A stretch of DNA of 64,000 nt from a bacterium (Candidatus Blackallbacteria) CG13_big_fil_rev_8_21_14_2_50_49_14. GTDB lineage: Bacteria > Cyanobacteriota > Sericytochromatia > UBA7694. How positions within the stretch are numbered: the stretch's first letter is position 1; the number at the start of each line of letters is the position of its first letter. The translations under genes and the position numbers were made by a program. A model generated the notes under the pieces. The model was not told the origin of the DNA. It did not search any database and saw only the letters and a list, made by a program, of their open reading frames with translations. Positions 15,427 to 23,569 of this stretch are shown piece by piece. The stretch covers positions 1 to 64,000 of the forward strand of contig PFGG01000041.1 in assembly GCA_002783405.1 (NCBI GenBank), read 5' to 3'.

Positions 15427-16029
15427 ATGAGCAGACCCTATGATGAAAGACCCGTAAACAGCTCCTCTGAAGGCGCTGAAGCACCCGCAGAACGTCCTGC
15501 GCGCGCTCCCCGTTCTTATGGCGATCGCCCTTCTTACCAAGGCGGTGGAGATCGTCCTCCTTACCAAGGTGGCGGAGATCGTCCTCCTTACCAAGGTGGT
15601 GGAGATCGTCCTCCTTACCAAGGCGGCGGAGATCGCCCTCCTTACCAAGGTGGTGGAGATCGTCCTCCTTACCAAGGTGGCGGAGATCGTCCTCCTTACC
15701 AAGGTGGTGGAGATCGTCCCTCCTATGGTGGCGGTGGTCGTCGCTTTGGCGGACCTGGTCAAGGTGGCAACAGCCGCTTTGGTGGCCGCGGAGGTGGTCC
15801 CCGTCGTCGTCGTCAGAAAATTTCTAAGTTCGACGAATGGGGCATTGATAATATCGATTATAAAGATGTAGAGCGTTTGAAAGAATTTTTGAGCGAACAC
15901 GCCAAGATTCTTTCCCGCCGTGTGACTGGCAGCCGTGCCAAGCACCAACGTCGTTTGACCCGTGCGATCAAACGTGCTCGTTTTATGGCGCTTCTGCCCT
16001 ATGTCGGCAAAATTGAAAAACACAGATAA
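15427..16029 (+). CDS. rpsR: 30S ribosomal protein bS18 with long repetitive N-terminal extension
   Basis: The last 70 residues (131-200) are a complete S18, from [18 protein letters not shown] to [12 protein letters not shown]. The first 130 residues are foreign to typical S18 (about 75-90 residues in total). After a Ser/Glu/Ala/Pro/Arg lead come eight copies of a nonapeptide of the type GGGDRPPYQ, then a Gly/Arg stretch with RGG motifs. The extension should be disordered, basic and RNA-binding, and possibly prone to phase separation. It resembles the Gly-rich linkers of SSB proteins, and the SSB next door lacks one. GAAAGG lies 10 bases before ATG 15427. Confidence 0.95.
15520..15729 (+). 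repeat. 27-bp tandem repeat inside rpsR
   Basis: Seven units of 27 bases run from 15541 to 15729, preceded by a partial unit from 15520. Units differ mainly at silent third positions (GGT/GGC, CGT/CGC), so the array is not freshly duplicated, and the amino-acid repeat appears to be selected. All three plus frames and an antisense frame stay open through it, which produces spurious reading frames. Confidence 0.9.
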
Positions 16030-16404: not shown

Positions 16405-19335
16405 CTAAAATATTTCTTTTAGTTTTTCCTGATAGCGGGAGTAAATAAAGGCGACTCCCAAGAGAATGATGCCCAGAACAATAAAAGAAAGCGTTTTAAA
16501 CAGCGGATCCATGCCTGCAATATCTAAAATAAAGACTTTTGCGATACTTAAAAAGAACATAAGAATGCCTTGATAACGGTAGGTTTTGCGGTTTTTAGCA
16601 AAGCCAAAGCCCATCAGTACGACTCCCAGGAGGGCCCAACTGAGGGTGATTTTAAAGCTGTCTAATTGAATGATGAAAAATACAGTGAAGGTTAAGGTGC
16701 CCATTCCGCTGTAAATGGGAAAAAGGTGATTCTCAAAGGGTTGCATGGGAGCCTTTAACTTTTCTTTAAGCGACTCGAATTTCAGCGCGATGCCATGAAA
16801 GAACAGGGCCATCAGAATCAGTGCGATGGGTCTGAATATTTGGGGGGTATCAGCGGTTACGCCCATTCCGCTAAAATCGATCAGCAGTGCTTTGATTAGC
16901 AAAATATAGGAAGCACTGTAAAACCCTACTCTGAGGCTCTTAAACTGTAGATTTTTTTGCATGATGGTAAAAAGAAATACGATTAAACCTAACCAAAGTA
17001 GATTGACCAAATAGACAGAGAATTGAGAGGCCATCCAGGCCAGGGCAAGGTAAATTCCACTGAGTAGATAAAAACTGGCGGACTGTCGATCTAAGAATGC
17101 GATATCGAAATCTCTCTGCTTTTTTAAAGGCTTTTCCTCCAGTATTTCTGCTGATTGAGTATCTGGAGCGCTGACGGCGAAGGCATTCACTTTGTAAAAA
17201 CTCAATCCAATCGCAAACAAAAGGCTTAAGACAACACCGTCTAGATACAGGTTTCCATGTGATAAGCTTTCCTCCATCTGCAGGGGGGTGAAAAAATGAA
17301 AGTGTATAAATTGGATGATGGTTAAAACACCACTTAAATAGGCTACCTGTCTCACCGTTTTAAAGTCGGTCTGTTGATAGGCCCAAAAACTAAGTGCTGC
17401 GGTGAGACATGCACCTGCAAACCCCAAAGTACTTCCTGTCAAACTTTTGTCTAAAAAGATCAACAAGCCGAGAGCAGCTGTCCAGATATAGACACTCGGC
17501 AGGTTTTTTTCCTGTTCTTCCAATAATTCTTGGTGTTTGAATAGAAAATAACCCAGCACAAAAAATGAGCTGATTGTACACAGGGATACAAAATATTGAA
17601 AAGGCGTGATCGGCGCTTCCTGTGAGAAATTGTAGACCAAATCAACCAGGAGTAGTTTACTTGCGATCAGGCCATCAATCGCATAATTTGAATATCGCAG
17701 TGCTTTCATTTTGAAACGATAGGAAGCGATCGTGAGAATGACCGATTCGATTACCCATACCAAGGTGATTACTTCTGCGTTCAAATGCAGAGAAACAGTC
17801 AACGTCAATGCTGCAACGGTCAGGTAAAGATAGGTCGACCGGCACAGCTCTGATTTGCCTTGTTTTGAGGCAAAGTAGAAAAGCGCAGCATAGCACAGGG
17901 TCATGAACAAATAGGGCAAGCCTCTGAAGTTGGGGGTGTTTTGGGCCACAAAATAATAAAGCATAATGGCGGTAAAGACCCCATGCAGCATGGCCAAGAG
18001 AGAGAGATGTTTTTCATCTTTTGAGTTTTCAGACTTCCAAGAGACGAAGCTTTGCCATTGAAAGGCAGTAAAGAAGAGTGTCACCAAGCCCAAAAGTATC
18101 AAGCTGTTTTGAATGTTCTGCTCGGGCAGATTAAAACTCAGAATAACGGAATAGGAAAAGAACCAAAAGACGTTCATCACTTTGAAAACAAGCGTTTTCT
18201 GTTCGGGCAAATTTTGCTTTTGCAGGGAGTAGACGAGGCCCGTATAGAGCAAATTCAAGAAGAGCAGCGAGAGAGCCGCCAAAACAAAAAGTTCTGTATT
18301 TTGCTGATACCAAAAGCCAAAGTATAAATAGGCGACGTTTAATCCTGCCTGGCCGATATCGGTCCAGCGTTTCAGGCTGCTTAGCAGAGCCAATCCAATG
18401 GCCAGCAAGAGGCCATAGACAAGGGTCAGGGTTTCATAGCCATTGCTTAAGAAGGTCGTGGTATACCCCAGAAAAAATGCGCCACTGACAATCACCTTGG
18501 AATTGTGCAGCAGGGCCATGCCGATGGCTCCCAAGACCACCAGACTGAGCAAAATGATATCCCCTAACTCGGATATTCCAATCGCTTGCCGATACGCTTC
18601 AAAATGGTAGGCCGCATAGATCATAAAATACAGAAGGGCAAATCCCCCTCCAATCAGCGTGCGTCCCCAATGAATATATTTCTCCCAGCGTGTGACATAA
18701 TGCCCACCGGCTACAAGCGCGAAGGCAAAAGAGACACCCATGGCGAGTCGCGGCACATAACCAATCCAGTTATTTTTAAAAGCCAATCGCAGCAAAAGGC
18801 CAATTCCCAAGACCAGGGCCACAATACCAATACGTGAAAACCATTTCAAGCCAATATTTTCTTCAAGGCTGGTGGCTGAACGGATCTTTTCTGGACTTTT
18901 CATGGCATGGGTTTCGATGCCCTGTGGTAGCATGGCTTTGAGGGCTTCAGGCGTAAAGCCATCAACCTGATCTGTTACTGCCTCAAGCTGGAGACTGTCG
19001 AGAGCCGTTTCTTCCACACTTTCAAAGGCTGTTTCAAGAATTTCTTGCTGAAATTCTTCAGTTTTGGCTGGGGGTTGATGGGGGGGGCGTTTTGTATGGG
19101 GAGGAAAAGCTTCTGTTTCATTAGGTGAAGCCTCTGTGCTTTGAATCGCAGGGGATTGGCTTACGAGTGGGCGCTTCCATGCCGATTCAGATAATTTGGG
19201 GCTTGTGCGGGTGTGCTTTTCAGTTTGGGCCAAGGCCGTTTCAAGATCACTGACTCTGCGCTCTAATTGAGCATTGCGTTCGAGCAACCACTCTACGTCT
19301 TTTTTTAAGTTTTCAAACAGATAATGTTTAAACAT
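16405..19335 (-). CDS. DUF2339 multi-spanning membrane protein
   Basis: This 976-residue protein has an N-terminal coiled coil (about 5-40), a long polar Pro/Glu/Thr-rich linker (40-155) and then roughly 25 hydrophobic segments to the C-terminus. The start of the membrane part (EENIGLKWFSRIGIVALVLGIG) is the hallmark of DUF2339 proteins. The family has no established function; its tandem helix pairs suggest an envelope or transport role. A run of eight C in mRNA sense (plus strand 19080-19087) encodes Pro-Pro in the linker. The start ATG 19335 has only a weak ribosome-binding site. Confidence 0.85.
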   Translation of the reverse strand: MFKHYLFENLKKDVEWLLERNAQLERRVSDLETALAQTEKHTRTSPKLSESAWKRPLVSQSPAIQSTEASPNETEAFPPHTKRPPHQPPAKTEEFQQEILETAFESVEETALDSLQLEAVTDQVDGFTPEALKAMLPQGIETHAMKSPEKIRSATSLEENIGLKWFSRIGIVALVLGIGLLLRLAFKNNWIGYVPRLAMGVSFAFALVAGGHYVTRWEKYIHWGRTLIGGGFALLYFMIYAAYHFEAYRQAIGISELGDIILLSLVVLGAIGMALLHNSKVIVSGAFFLGYTTTFLSNGYETLTLVYGLLLAIGLALLSSLKRWTDIGQAGLNVAYLYFGFWYQQNTELFVLAALSLLFLNLLYTGLVYSLQKQNLPEQKTLVFKVMNVFWFFSYSVILSFNLPEQNIQNSLILLGLVTLFFTAFQWQSFVSWKSENSKDEKHLSLLAMLHGVFTAIMLYYFVAQNTPNFRGLPYLFMTLCYAALFYFASKQGKSELCRSTYLYLTVAALTLTVSLHLNAEVITLVWVIESVILTIASYRFKMKALRYSNYAIDGLIASKLLLVDLVYNFSQEAPITPFQYFVSLCTISSFFVLGYFLFKHQELLEEQEKNLPSVYIWTAALGLLIFLDKSLTGSTLGFAGACLTAALSFWAYQQTDFKTVRQVAYLSGVLTIIQFIHFHFFTPLQMEESLSHGNLYLDGVVLSLLFAIGLSFYKVNAFAVSAPDTQSAEILEEKPLKKQRDFDIAFLDRQSASFYLLSGIYLALAWMASQFSVYLVNLLWLGLIVFLFTIMQKNLQFKSLRVGFYSASYILLIKALLIDFSGMGVTADTPQIFRPIALILMALFFHGIALKFESLKEKLKAPMQPFENHLFPIYSGMGTLTFTVFFIIQLDSFKITLSWALLGVVLMGFGFAKNRKTYRYQGILMFFLSIAKVFILDIAGMDPLFKTLSFIVLGIILLGVAFIYSRYQEKLKEIF

Positions 19336-19464: not shown

Positions 19465-19998
19465 TTAGCATGTAGAGGTAGAATTTCTGAAATAATCTTC
19501 AGCTAAAATGCTCATCACCACCGCATTGAGATAGTGGCCCTGTTTAAAATAGGCCTGACGCAAACAGCCTTCAACCTGAAAGCCTGTTTTAAGATAAAGC
19601 GTATGGGCTGCCAGATTGTCTTCACGATGTTGAAGGTAAACTCTGTTTAAATGAAGGTCCTCAAAGGCATGTTTTAAACCGAGTCGGGTTGCCAGGGTGC
19701 CATAATTTTTACCTCTGGCCTCAGCTTCACCGATCAAAATACTGAATTCAGCACTGCGGTGAACGGCGTGGATTTGGGTGAGATTGAGGTTGCCAATATG
19801 GGTTTGGGTTTCAGATTCACAAATGGCGAGTCTGACGTTTTGGGCGCGGTTTTGCAGATAAGCTTCAAACCAGGCAGCTTCAGTTTCAGGATTGATATAG
19901 CGAAAAGGTTCCCCCAAGTTTTCAACCAATAGAGGGTCCTGGCGCCAGCGCAAGGTATTTTGAAGGTCGGAGCGGGTCAGTTCGCGAAGAAAAATCAT
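19465..19998 (-). CDS. GNAT-family N-acetyltransferase (RimJ/RimL type)
   Basis: This 177-residue acyl-CoA-dependent N-acyltransferase starts FLRELTRSDLQNTLRWR and contains an acetyl-CoA-binding loop (ARGKNYGTLATRLGLKHAF) and the closing block LYLKTGFQVEGCLRQAYF. It is similar in outline to RimJ/RimL and to PseH-like sugar-amine acetyltransferases. It is the last gene of a five-gene minus-strand operon, overlapping the methyltransferase by 4 bases. In that setting it could acetylate an amine made by the upstream transaminase-like protein, but this is inference. Confidence 0.85.
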   Translation of the reverse strand: MIFLRELTRSDLQNTLRWRQDPLLVENLGEPFRYINPETEAAWFEAYLQNRAQNVRLAICESETQTHIGNLNLTQIHAVHRSAEFSILIGEAEARGKNYGTLATRLGLKHAFEDLHLNRVYLQHREDNLAAHTLYLKTGFQVEGCLRQAYFKQGHYLNAVVMSILAEDYFRNSTSTC

Positions 19999-20732
19999 GG
20001 GGCTTCACAGACCAGAAAAATACTCGCACATTGGGTGGGATGCTCCATCCCCAAGGCAAAACAGGCTTCCATAAAAGCATCTGAAATTAAGTCAGTGCCA
20101 ATCAATCGGTCGAACTGAAAATTGGCGAGGGGTTTATAAAAAATGCCCCCCCTTGCGAGAATCTTCAGCCCTGCTTCGCGTGCATCGTTTTCAAAGGTAT
20201 CGCTGAGATAAACTCTGCGATGCCCATGTTTGAGATCGGCTTCTGATAAATCACACAAATGGCGTAAAATTCCCATTTTTACTGCAATCTGTCGCGAGGG
20301 AGCATTCCCATTGGGTACGATCAGAAAGAGTCTGCCTGTCGGGCTGAGCAAGCTTTTTGCCTTTTCAAGCACAGCAACAGGGTGATCCAGGTGCTCTAAA
20401 ACATGAAGCAGAAAGATCGCATCATACCGCTCTTCGCTTTCAAAGGTTTCAAACAAGGATTGTTTGAAAACCACCGCTTTGCCCACCCGTTGACGTGTGG
20501 CTTCGATAAATTGAGCGGCTGCTTCAACCACTGTCAAATCTGGGTACAGTGCCGCCAATAAACTGGTAAACTCACCATGCATGCACCCCATTTCAAGGGC
20601 TTTTCCTGGCTTCAACCAAGGCTTGAGCGTGCGCAACATATACTGTCGCATTCGCGTATCAAAGGGCGATAAATCATAGTCATCTGCAATTTGATTGAGG
20701 CGTTCAAATTCAAGCTGGTTAAATTCAGGCAT
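19995..20732 (-). CDS. Class I SAM-dependent methyltransferase
   Basis: This 245-residue methyltransferase has motif I at about residues 45-53 (ALEMGCMHG), a post-I acidic residue near 70 and the HVLEHLDHP motif typical of Methyltransf_11/23 proteins such as those in glycan and natural-product clusters. The C-terminal third carries GIFYKPLANFQ, seen in sugar-nucleotide or lipid methyltransferases. It overlaps the GNAT gene by 4 bases and follows the PhyH-like gene by 15 bases. The substrate is unknown. Confidence 0.82.
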   Translation of the reverse strand: MPEFNQLEFERLNQIADDYDLSPFDTRMRQYMLRTLKPWLKPGKALEMGCMHGEFTSLLAALYPDLTVVEAAAQFIEATRQRVGKAVVFKQSLFETFESEERYDAIFLLHVLEHLDHPVAVLEKAKSLLSPTGRLFLIVPNGNAPSRQIAVKMGILRHLCDLSEADLKHGHRRVYLSDTFENDAREAGLKILARGGIFYKPLANFQFDRLIGTDLISDAFMEACFALGMEHPTQCASIFLVCEAP

Positions 20733-20747
20733 GCTTTACTGCTTTCT

Positions 20748-21533
20748 TTAGCCTTGTCCTGGCCGGTAAAATCGAGCTTCGGGGGGCTGGTACCAATCCG
20801 CTAAATTTTGGGGGATTCTTGAATAATAACCCAAAACCTGTTTTAAACGATCTGAAAGTTTGTGCTGCTGTTCTGCGTTATAGGCCGCTAAATAATCAAA
20901 CTGTGGTTTGATAAAGGGAGGGGTGAAGGTCAAGGTCAAGCCCCTTCGATACGAGGGGCTTTGATTTTGACCGGCAGCATGCCAAAGGCGCGAATCAAAA
21001 AGCAAAAGGCTTCCTGCGGGGGCACAGATTTGCTGAGCCTTTGCAAAAAACTCAGCTTCTTGGGGTTTATCAGCGGTTAGGTGAGAGCCTTCCAATAACC
21101 AAGTGGCCCCATTCTCAGGCTTAAAATCGTCTAAAATCACCAAGAGATTGATCATGATATGGAACTGGGGAGTCCATGAGCGTTGATCGCGGTGGATATG
21201 ATGCACATAAGCGGTTTCTGAAGGAGGATTGAGCACCCCCCCATACGAATTGAGAATAAAGGGCCCTGCTAAGAATGCTTGAATTTCAGTTTCAAGATCG
21301 CCGCGCTCCAAAAACATTTTGAAAAGTGGGTCTTGAGCTAAAAGATGGTGAGCTGTTCCTGGCAGGGCAGAGCCTAAATACTTGCTTTGAAGTTCAGAAC
21401 AATGCTCAACCGCTCGTTCGAGTGCTGCACCCAGACCTTGGCACAGATCGGCTGGCAATTTATTTGGACTGAGCCACCAGCCTTTTTGAGCCAGGGCATG
21501 ATGAAAATCAGGGGAGACTTCGCTGGGATTCAA
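20748..21533 (-). CDS. Phytanoyl-CoA dioxygenase-like (PhyH) oxygenase
   Basis: This 261-residue 2-oxoglutarate/Fe(II) oxygenase has its iron ligands H114-x-D116 and H185 in place, and R196 or R197 is suited to bind 2-oxoglutarate. The length fits PhyH. Such enzymes hydroxylate small molecules, lipids or amino acids in biosynthetic clusters. Its start overlaps the FemAB-like gene stop by 4 bases. In this operon it is likely a tailoring hydroxylase; the target is unknown. Confidence 0.82.
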   Translation of the reverse strand: MNPSEVSPDFHHALAQKGWWLSPNKLPADLCQGLGAALERAVEHCSELQSKYLGSALPGTAHHLLAQDPLFKMFLERGDLETEIQAFLAGPFILNSYGGVLNPPSETAYVHHIHRDQRSWTPQFHIMINLLVILDDFKPENGATWLLEGSHLTADKPQEAEFFAKAQQICAPAGSLLLFDSRLWHAAGQNQSPSYRRGLTLTFTPPFIKPQFDYLAAYNAEQQHKLSDRLKQVLGYYSRIPQNLADWYQPPEARFYRPGQG

Positions 21534-22432
21534 AATATTTCTCCTTCTCGGTAAGCAGGAAAATAATTTCCTTGTTTATTCTCAGTCAGAAAGCGGTATT
21601 TTTCTCGATCAAAGATTTTACCACAAAGCCAAACAGGCCATCGGACATTGCTCCAGCCTTGTTTGAAGAACGCCAGTCCATTTTCGCTCTGATTGTACAG
21701 GCCACCGCCTAAATCGAGATGGTGATATCCTTGTTCAGCGAACCAGGCAATGCCTTTTTGATAAAGCAAATAGGCGCAGTAATTTTCGTATCCCAGCTTC
21801 GAACTGGCAGCCAAATGACTATACGCTTTTTTTTGAGCGGGGTCGAGCATCCACAGATGAATTCCCAAGATATCTTGATCTATTCTTGCAAGAAAGGCGA
21901 TCAGGCCTGGGGTTTGTAATAGATTTTGAAAAGCAGTTTTTGAAAACGCTCTCACTCCCTTGATCTGGTGCTTCAGAATCAGGTTTTGGTACAAATCAAA
22001 CCATTCGTTGAGGATTTGCAGAGGCTCCACAAGGACTTCAAAGCTCTGCGTGCGTTCTGCACGGCGGGCATAGTAGCGGTGGTGAGCACTGAATTCAAGT
22101 TTTTGGGTGAGGTCTATTCCATAATGGTGTTTGAAAAGACGAAAGCAATCAGGAAACAAGGGGCCCAACTGCTTTTCTGAATTTGGGTCAAGCGGATCAC
22201 TTACCAAAACCAAAGCTATAAAAGATTCAAGCGTTTGCAATGCTTGCAGATCAGCTTTCAGGTTTTCAGGTTTTAAGGCCTTAAAAAAAGGATAGGATCC
22301 TGTTAAATCAAAACCAAACTGCCGAAAAGTTCGCTTGAATAGCCACCCTTGGGCGTGTTTGAGAAAATGGGCTTCTCCGATTGAATCAAGTGATTTCACA
22401 TAGGCCTCAGCCAGGTAGCCAGACTCAGACAC
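21530..22432 (-). CDS. FemAB-like / GNAT-type acyltransferase
   Basis: This 300-residue protein resembles FemAB-related aminoacyl- or acyl-transferases with a double GNAT fold: YYARRAERTQSFEVLV in the middle, HLAASSKLGYENYCAYLLYQ, then the strand LDLGGG and the end block LAFFKQGW. Relatives use aminoacyl-tRNA or acyl donors to modify peptidoglycan precursors or exported polysaccharide. It overlaps the transaminase-like gene by 8 bases and the PhyH-like gene by 4 bases. No signal peptide is seen, so it is cytoplasmic. Confidence 0.75.
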   Translation of the reverse strand: MSESGYLAEAYVKSLDSIGEAHFLKHAQGWLFKRTFRQFGFDLTGSYPFFKALKPENLKADLQALQTLESFIALVLVSDPLDPNSEKQLGPLFPDCFRLFKHHYGIDLTQKLEFSAHHRYYARRAERTQSFEVLVEPLQILNEWFDLYQNLILKHQIKGVRAFSKTAFQNLLQTPGLIAFLARIDQDILGIHLWMLDPAQKKAYSHLAASSKLGYENYCAYLLYQKGIAWFAEQGYHHLDLGGGLYNQSENGLAFFKQGWSNVRWPVWLCGKIFDREKYRFLTENKQGNYFPAYREGEIF

Positions 22433-23453
22433 TTTTTAAGCTTTTCAATAAGTGTTTGAGCAGGTAGTGCATTTCCTGCTCTTGGTAGCGTTGATCAATC
22501 GGCAGGGTCAGAATCTGTTCAGAGAGCAGGTGTGAATTTTGGAATTCAGACGGGATCCTGTTTTCAAGTCTCCAGTGAACGGGGCAATAGATCTGTGCCT
22601 TTGCCAGAGAGTGCTGGAGTTTATCGCGCTGGGGGGTTTGAATTGGAAAACCCAGCGGAACCGCCTGTTCGGGAAGCTCTTTAAAAACAGCCAAATCAGG
22701 GATTTGGTCGAGCAGATATTTAAAATTTTCGCGTCTGATCCTGGCGATTTCAGAATAATTGACAGCATGGTTTAAAATAGCCCGGCTGTGACTGCTCATG
22801 GCATAGGCTCCGGTTTTTTGTTCGGTTTCAGCCCTTTGGTAGAGGTGAAACCATTCAGCTTGCAATTGGATGTCATGTTTACCTTTGAAATCAAAATCCC
22901 GACGCAGCAGCAAAGCTTTTTGCATTTTAAGCCAAGGCACGGCTGGAGGGGGGGGGAGTTCATTGAATTTTAAGGAGATTCGTGGCCCGGTTAGAACGCC
23001 GCCGTCAGGAATGCCGAGCCATTTTCGTGGGCTGTAGAGGGTATACCCATCAGGAAACAGAGATTTTACAAACAAGCCTTGGGCTGCATCGACAACCATG
23101 CTTGCAGGCGAATCCTGCAAGGCCTGTATAAAAGCTGTTGAGGGGAGCATGCCAAAATAGATGGGGCAGAGCACCAAATCATCTGAGCGCAGCTTTTGTG
23201 TCCAACGCAGATGGACAGGTTTGAGTGTCTGATCGATTTCATAGAAACTTATTTTTACTTGTTCTGAAACTGCGTCAATAAGTTGTGGGCAGATAAAACT
23301 GGGAAGCCAGATGCGCTCAGGTTTTAATGACTGAATCAGGAGATAGAGGGCCGAGCGCGCATTCCAAGTGAACAGAGCAGATTCTGGAAAGGGCCAGTGA
23401 GGTTCGGCTTGAAGGTTGATTTCATGATAGGCAAAGAGTCCACCGAGAAACAT
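22425..23453 (-). CDS. DegT/DnrJ-type PLP-dependent transaminase-like protein
   Basis: This 342-residue fold-type I PLP protein is probably related to DegT/DnrJ/EryC1 sugar aminotransferases. D122 and Q125 in VVDAAQG and the likely Schiff-base K144 in SPRKWLG, followed by a GG, match the family order. It is shorter and more divergent than typical members (about 370 residues), so a non-sugar substrate is possible. It is the first gene of the five-gene operon and is divergent from a lipoprotein gene. A run of nine C in mRNA sense (22948-22956) encodes a Pro run. Confidence 0.72.
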   Translation of the reverse strand: MFLGGLFAYHEINLQAEPHWPFPESALFTWNARSALYLLIQSLKPERIWLPSFICPQLIDAVSEQVKISFYEIDQTLKPVHLRWTQKLRSDDLVLCPIYFGMLPSTAFIQALQDSPASMVVDAAQGLFVKSLFPDGYTLYSPRKWLGIPDGGVLTGPRISLKFNELPPPPAVPWLKMQKALLLRRDFDFKGKHDIQLQAEWFHLYQRAETEQKTGAYAMSSHSRAILNHAVNYSEIARIRRENFKYLLDQIPDLAVFKELPEQAVPLGFPIQTPQRDKLQHSLAKAQIYCPVHWRLENRIPSEFQNSHLLSEQILTLPIDQRYQEQEMHYLLKHLLKSLKSV

Positions 23454-23569
23454 GAATGCGATTGTGCCTCAGTCTTCGAGAATGGCTCTATTATGCCACA
23501 ATCAGCCCAAATTCCCCAGACAATAAATGACTGGGTCTGTGTTATATTGCTCTCAGAGGGGTGTTCACT

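Follow-up and report, generated by a model that had tools for sequence, protein, structure and literature searches.

Organization of the operon

The DNA analyzed here is a window of 64,000 nucleotides from the bacterium Candidatus Blackallbacteria CG13_big_fil_rev_8_21_14_2_50_49_14 (contig PFGG01000041.1), and its subject is a compact operon of five genes on the minus strand that is likely to act in the tailoring of an amino sugar. Gene 1 (22425..23453, ATG start) encodes a divergent DegT-like pyridoxal phosphate (PLP) protein of 342 amino acids. It is overlapped by 8 bases by gene 2 (21530..22432, GTG), encoding a FemAB/GNAT-type acyltransferase of 300 amino acids, which in turn is overlapped by 4 bases by gene 3 (20748..21533, TTG), encoding a PhyH-type Fe(II)/2-oxoglutarate oxygenase of 261 amino acids. 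Gene 4 (19995..20732, ATG) starts 15 bases past gene 3 and encodes a class I S-adenosylmethionine (SAM) methyltransferase of 245 amino acids, and gene 5 (19465..19998, ATG), overlapping gene 4 by 4 bases, encodes a GNAT N-acetyltransferase of the SpeG/PseH type with 177 amino acids. A first-pass annotation, made from the letters alone, had described these genes as one operon, and the open reading frames, the strand, the three overlaps and the gap were all confirmed, with the 8-base and the first 4-base figures depending on the assumed GTG and TTG starts of genes 2 and 3.

Family assignment of the encoded proteins

Taken alone, gene 1 falls below every family cut-off in Pfam and NCBIfam scans, and the Pfam DegT family (PF01041) reaches 12.5 bits (E 0.085) against a gathering threshold of 19.8. 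Among eleven PLP relatives, seven are matched by PF01041 at E values up to 0.1 (best 1.6e-5), and a profile built from all eleven matched QdtB at 1.5e-8, plus other sugar aminotransferases. In canonical DegT enzymes a lysine forms the Schiff base with the cofactor, an aspartate serves the PLP pyridine and a G-T motif binds the phosphate. Lys144, Asp122, Ser141, Arg143 and Gly151 are invariant in the eleven relatives, and Lys144 and Asp122 align with the Schiff-base lysine and the pyridine aspartate. The N-terminus is shorter than in canonical DegT proteins and A-R33 replaces the phosphate-binding G-T. Judged by its sequence, gene 1 belongs to a shortened DegT subfamily without annotation, in which the catalytic lysine and aspartate are retained. 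Since these two residues are kept, PLP chemistry seems possible, and since the N-terminus and the phosphate site are changed, it would act on a different substrate. The lack of a usable PLP pocket, named beforehand as a finding that would speak against the proposal, is thus not indicated by the aligned residues. The AlphaFold2 model of gene 1 was poor (mean pLDDT 41, built on a two-sequence alignment) and was not used for a fold search.

For gene 2 a single-sequence search gave weak support for FemAB, with Acetyltransf_6 at 0.0012, below the cut-off. A four-member FemAB profile matched in the PDB the aminoacyl-tRNA-dependent peptide synthase 9wqy (1.5e-4) and FemX (1.3e-3), and in a Foldseek search with the AlphaFold2 model, likewise poor and based on only two aligned sequences, FemX was the best match (8.8e-4). 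Profile and predicted fold agree in suggesting that gene 2 is homologous to FemX over the GNAT-like domain.

That the peptide synthase ranks ahead of FemX bears on an alternative, in which the operon acts in the making or modification of a diffusible small molecule such as a modified amino acid, a small peptide or an aminoglycoside-like compound, and not on a residue of a glycan. In that case the FemAB-like enzyme would be a peptide synthase that draws on aminoacyl-tRNA, in the manner of streptothricin-type biosynthesis. The absence of a glycosyltransferase in or near the operon is consistent with such a product. However, no synthetase, transporter or resistance gene is found nearby either, and the relatives of the operon genes sit in surface-glycan clusters, as described below, and we regard a diffusible product as rather unlikely.

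The three remaining assignments are clear. Gene 3 matches Pfam PhyH at 9.7e-21, and the metal triad H114-x-D116...H185 and an arginine at 196/197, corresponding to the HxD...H motif and the 2-oxoglutarate arginine of these oxygenases, are conserved in its relatives; gene 3 also has a conserved YRPGQG-type C-terminus, in common with most of the PhyH relatives in glycan clusters. Gene 4 matches Methyltransf_23 at 7.5e-20. Its best solved structure is the hypothetical protein 2p7h (8.1e-73), and NodS, which methylates an amino sugar of Nod factors, is among the next (1e-7). Gene 5 matches the GNAT family Acetyltransf_3 at 1.7e-21, with SpeG as the top NCBIfam match, PseH as the next, and a SpeG-type match in the PDB. 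The first-pass annotation had named the same five families; its FemAB call is borne out by the profile and the low-confidence fold, and its PLP call as a remote DegT profile match. A screen for defence-system and phage families returned nothing relevant, the mad2 match of the methyltransferase spanning the SAM domain alone.

Conservation within the genus and class

All five genes occur in the same order in a congener, a Candidatus Sericytochromatia metagenome-assembled genome (G001, contig JADMKE010000029.1, L014:7606-11658), which is the sole second member of the genus compared. The junctions there are an overlap of 4 bases, gaps of 11 and 18 bases and an overlap of 4 bases. In the one close relative that has them the genes are therefore not scattered, and tight junctions together with the kept order agree with the earlier view that they behave as one unit. 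The operon and the S6-SSB-S18 genes are convergent in both species, with a DUF2339 gene intervening in the window, and the opposite flank differs, so that the operon was kept as a unit while its surroundings changed.

Protein identities between window and congener are uneven, with 42% for the PLP protein, 46% for FemAB, 63% for PhyH, 64% for GNAT and 79% for the methyltransferase, the most conserved member. Compared to yardstick proteins of the same two species (S18 72%, RmlB 75%, the DesI-like DegT described below 72%, an AlkD-like protein 53%), the PLP and FemAB proteins diverge fast and the methyltransferase slowly. Such unevenness points to different evolutionary pressures and could mean that the five genes are a loose set of modification enzymes that share no common product. 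In view of the tight junctions, of the identical order despite changed flanks and of the recurrence of PLP, PhyH, methyltransferase and GNAT genes together elsewhere, this is considered highly improbable.

Neither the full set nor a close methyltransferase relative was found in the other 16 of 18 genomes of the class, some of which are incomplete, making absence in a single case weak evidence. Beyond the genus the five genes were not found together, and a genome-wide pattern scan including FemAB returned the congener only. The gene order is conserved in the congener, and in the distant relatives, where the first-pass annotation had proposed to look for it, only subsets recur.

Upstream of gene 1 lies a divergent intergenic region of 107 bases (23454..23560), which presumably contains the operon promoter; around the operon no consensus promoter or terminator stood out from chance, and the base composition across the region is even. 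Beyond it a small lipoprotein-like gene and an MscS-like gene follow. On the other side, the DUF2339 membrane protein gene (16405-19335, 976 amino acids), which is not present in the congener, separates the operon from the gene for ribosomal protein S18 (15427-16029). The latter carries an N-terminal tandem-repeat extension at 15519-15724 (27-base unit, 7.6 copies, GGGDRPPYQ-type). The protein has 200 amino acids in the window, the congener has a longer version of 239, and the S18 domain is normal.

Genomic neighbourhoods of relatives

Amino-sugar glycan clusters with subsets of the operon genes are found in other Cyanobacteriota, in Pseudomonadota and in Bacillota, and these clusters hold glycosyltransferases plus O-antigen or dTDP-sugar genes. 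Other phyla thereby lend support to the suggestion that the product is an unusual amino sugar or a residue of a glycan. Sampling of 386 Cyanobacteriota genomes gave PLP relatives in 79, most of them from one family with small genomes; PLP relatives are also present in Pseudomonadota and Bacillota. Outside the genus, a canonical DegT gene is nearby in 12 of 26 PLP loci and WbqC in 10 of 26, the loci having been inspected best-first, so that these counts represent no random sample; in most of the remaining loci the PLP gene stands alone. Of nine loci with methyltransferase relatives outside the genus, eight have a canonical DegT gene near, and the other one, on a contig of 5 kb, has WbqC and a GH43-like gene. 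The closer FemAB relatives all adjoin DegT, namely in the alphaproteobacterium Tropicibacter and in two Sericytochromatia genomes, G003 and G007. In a genome of 5.65 Mb with about nine DegT genes, a gene picked at random would have one of them within 6 kb in roughly 2% of cases, and the linkage to DegT is therefore far above chance.

The best single match outside the genus is found in the cyanobacterium G102 with the order DegT-WbqC-PLP-GNAT-PhyH. Another cyanobacterium (G304) has PLP-PhyH-FemAB-DegT near glycosyltransferase-like genes, its FemAB being more remote. RmlB-RmlA-DegT-(one gene)-WbqC-PLP is seen in G080, G177 and G170, and DegT-GT-WbqC-PLP (GT, glycosyltransferase) in Proteus mirabilis, where the cluster reads as an O-antigen cluster. 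For Acetoanaerobium, reading of the open reading frames gave PLP-acyltransferase-GT2-FemAB-type-GT39-DegT. Cupriavidus metallidurans CH34 has GT41-DegT-WbqC-PLP-PhyH-methyltransferase, and in Methylobacterium bullatum the cluster likewise comes after a GT41 gene.

Since a separate canonical DegT adjoins many PLP relatives, gene 1 probably does not act as the transaminase that brings in the sugar amine, and a role as plain 4-amine supplier was put aside. From the initial label of a PLP transaminase the relationship to DegT stands and the amine-supplying role probably does not.

The neighbourhoods showed further features. Stand-alone PLP genes with neither DegT nor WbqC nearby (L138, L141, L142, L144, L146, L148 and L015-L019) belong to the small-genome family or to one family of Sericytochromatia. 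ATP-grasp ligases lie directly after or close to the PLP gene in several loci (L135:8652-9902, L136, L139, L140, L060:15501-16790), hinting at amino-acid ligation; one of them is PylC- and D-Ala-ligase-like. A GH43-like 'glycosylase' gene is found in amino-sugar clusters (L032:4811-5749, L056:535-1680, L165:8507-10428, L166:5188-7118) beside WbqC, DegT and methyltransferase genes, sometimes in two tandem copies; it had no Pfam match where tested and bears a weak likeness to beta-1,2-mannobiose phosphorylase. The locus L056 (G016:C41) is a large Sericytochromatia cluster that combines this gene with PhyH, an MBOAT-type acyltransferase, WbqC, DegT, a methyltransferase and a hexapeptide acyltransferase.

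Candidate partner genes in the host genome

In the host genome, nine matches to DegT and a single one to RmlB exceed the cut-off. The DegT at 56.3-57.3 kb of contig G000:C74 is by far the closest to DesI, matching 2po3 (listed as '4-dehydrase') at 5.5e-107, and it is 59% identical to the DegT of the FemAB cluster in G003. In a tree it groups (99/98) with the DegTs beside FemAB (G003, G007, Tropicibacter) and beside PLP relatives (G102, G118). This DesI-like DegT and RmlB agree with the earlier suggestion that the operon modifies a precursor made elsewhere. WbqC was sought in the host and in the congener and was found in neither; the interpretation of the operon as one part of a split WbqC cluster was rejected for this reason.

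The host also encodes many GT41-like tetratricopeptide repeat (TPR) proteins, and the gene for one of them is some 4 kb away from that of the DesI-like DegT. Together with the GT41 genes that precede the clusters in Cupriavidus and Methylobacterium, and with flagellin glycosylation islands that join GT41, DegT and S-adenosylmethionine (AdoMet)-dependent methyltransferases (PMC4875605), this raises the possibility that the decorated sugar is linked to flagellin or a surface protein, with a GT41-like TPR glycosyltransferase encoded elsewhere in the genome as transferring enzyme. This would be a special case of surface amino-sugar tailoring. The DesI-like DegT of the congener, though, has no adjoining GT41-like gene, and host GT41 matches are numerous and partial, so that a single neighbour may be coincidence; linkage to protein by this route is judged unlikely.

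Proposed function

On balance, we consider it probable that the enzymes of the operon decorate a nucleotide-linked amino-deoxy sugar, and that the product becomes a residue of a glycan or glycoprotein of the cell surface. Such a tailoring role in general is well supported, and we infer the identity of the sugar, the source of the acyl group and the step of the PLP protein from protein families and genomic neighbours, as we do all steps of the mechanism. The most likely substrate would be dTDP-4-amino-4,6-dideoxyglucose (viosamine, Qui4N), given the DesI-like DegT and RmlB of the host and the grouping in the DegT tree. RmlB and this DegT, encoded outside the operon, would supply dTDP-Qui4N, and the FemAB-like protein may put an acyl group on the sugar amine, perhaps from aminoacyl-tRNA. 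The PhyH oxygenase could hydroxylate the acyl group or the sugar, the methyltransferase could methylate an oxygen or nitrogen of the sugar, and the GNAT enzyme could acetylate an amine remaining on the sugar or on the added group. The divergent DegT-like protein would perform further amino-group chemistry and not the main 4-amination.

Several points weigh against this proposal. Glycosyltransferase, DegT and sugar-nucleotide genes are all missing in and near the operon, the proposed partners lying on other contigs, and the DesI-like DegT scores 460 bits with TIGR04427, short of the 650 that mark the cut-off for DesI. Among the PLP relatives inspected, about half stand alone, the neighbourhood counts come from loci chosen best-first, the methyltransferase and GNAT folds occur in many pathways, and the structure models of the PLP and FemAB proteins are both of low confidence.

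A more specific version, in which gene 1 represents an uncharacterized PLP subfamily with a new amino-sugar step and the FemAB-like protein catalyzes tRNA-dependent aminoacylation of a nucleotide sugar, is put forward tentatively and regarded as doubtful. If it were true that a FemAB member acylates sugars from tRNA, translation chemistry would be joined to surface-glycan diversity, and a possible source would be given for amino-acid-bearing sugars, which are known from O-antigens. The unannotated PLP subfamily gains a likely pathway from the present analysis, and a compact, testable gene set is named.

Comparison with known systems

In the literature searched, on FemAB with DegT, on PhyH with O-antigen and on WbqC, no paper describes this gene set, which is in line with the first impression that no named system has exactly these members. 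With the DegT/DnrJ/EryC1/StrS aminotransferases (DesI, QdtB) gene 1 shares the lysine and aspartate as a remote homologue. It differs from canonical DegT enzymes in the shorter N-terminus, in SxRK replacing the usual motif before the lysine, in A-R in place of G-T and in having no family assigned by Pfam or NCBIfam; often a canonical DegT is encoded separately nearby. FemX and the aminoacyl-tRNA-dependent peptide synthases are the top matches of gene 2 by profile and low-confidence fold, whereas their identity to it is about 20% at most.

The nearest characterized pathway makes the modified viosamine found on the flagellin of Pseudomonas syringae. Mutants and mass spectrometry were used there to assign an aminotransferase, a methyltransferase and the enzymes for the acyl group; the island comprises vioA, vioM, vioT, vioS, vioB, vioR and acp (PMC3927599). 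Both systems combine an aminotransferase, an N-acyltransferase and a methyltransferase, in P. syringae yielding a 4-amino-4,6-dideoxyglucose that bears a methyl group and whose amine carries a hydroxyacyl group. In contrast, the hydroxyacyl group of the viosamine island comes from an acyl carrier protein (ACP) route (VioS, VioR, ACP), whereas the operon of the window would use FemAB, GNAT and PhyH. The island contains the dedicated transferase VioT, while no open reading frames for VioS, VioR, ACP or VioT lie in or beside the operon and the candidate dTDP-viosamine aminotransferase, the DesI-like DegT, is encoded on G000:C74.

Enterobacterial flagellin glycosylation islands mix DegT, AdoMet methyltransferases and acetyltransferases around GT41 (PMC4875605), and the Cupriavidus and Methylobacterium relatives show this mix. 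Unlike these islands, the operon has no link found to flagellin genes, being flanked by S18/DUF2339 and lipoprotein-like/MscS-like genes instead of a flagellin locus with a glycosyltransferase, and PhyH is absent from the text of PMC4875605. Because location and gene content differ, the operon is no member of the viosamine and flagellin islands, although it would work like them. The gene combination and the PLP subfamily are undescribed in the literature searched, whereas the kind of pathway is known.

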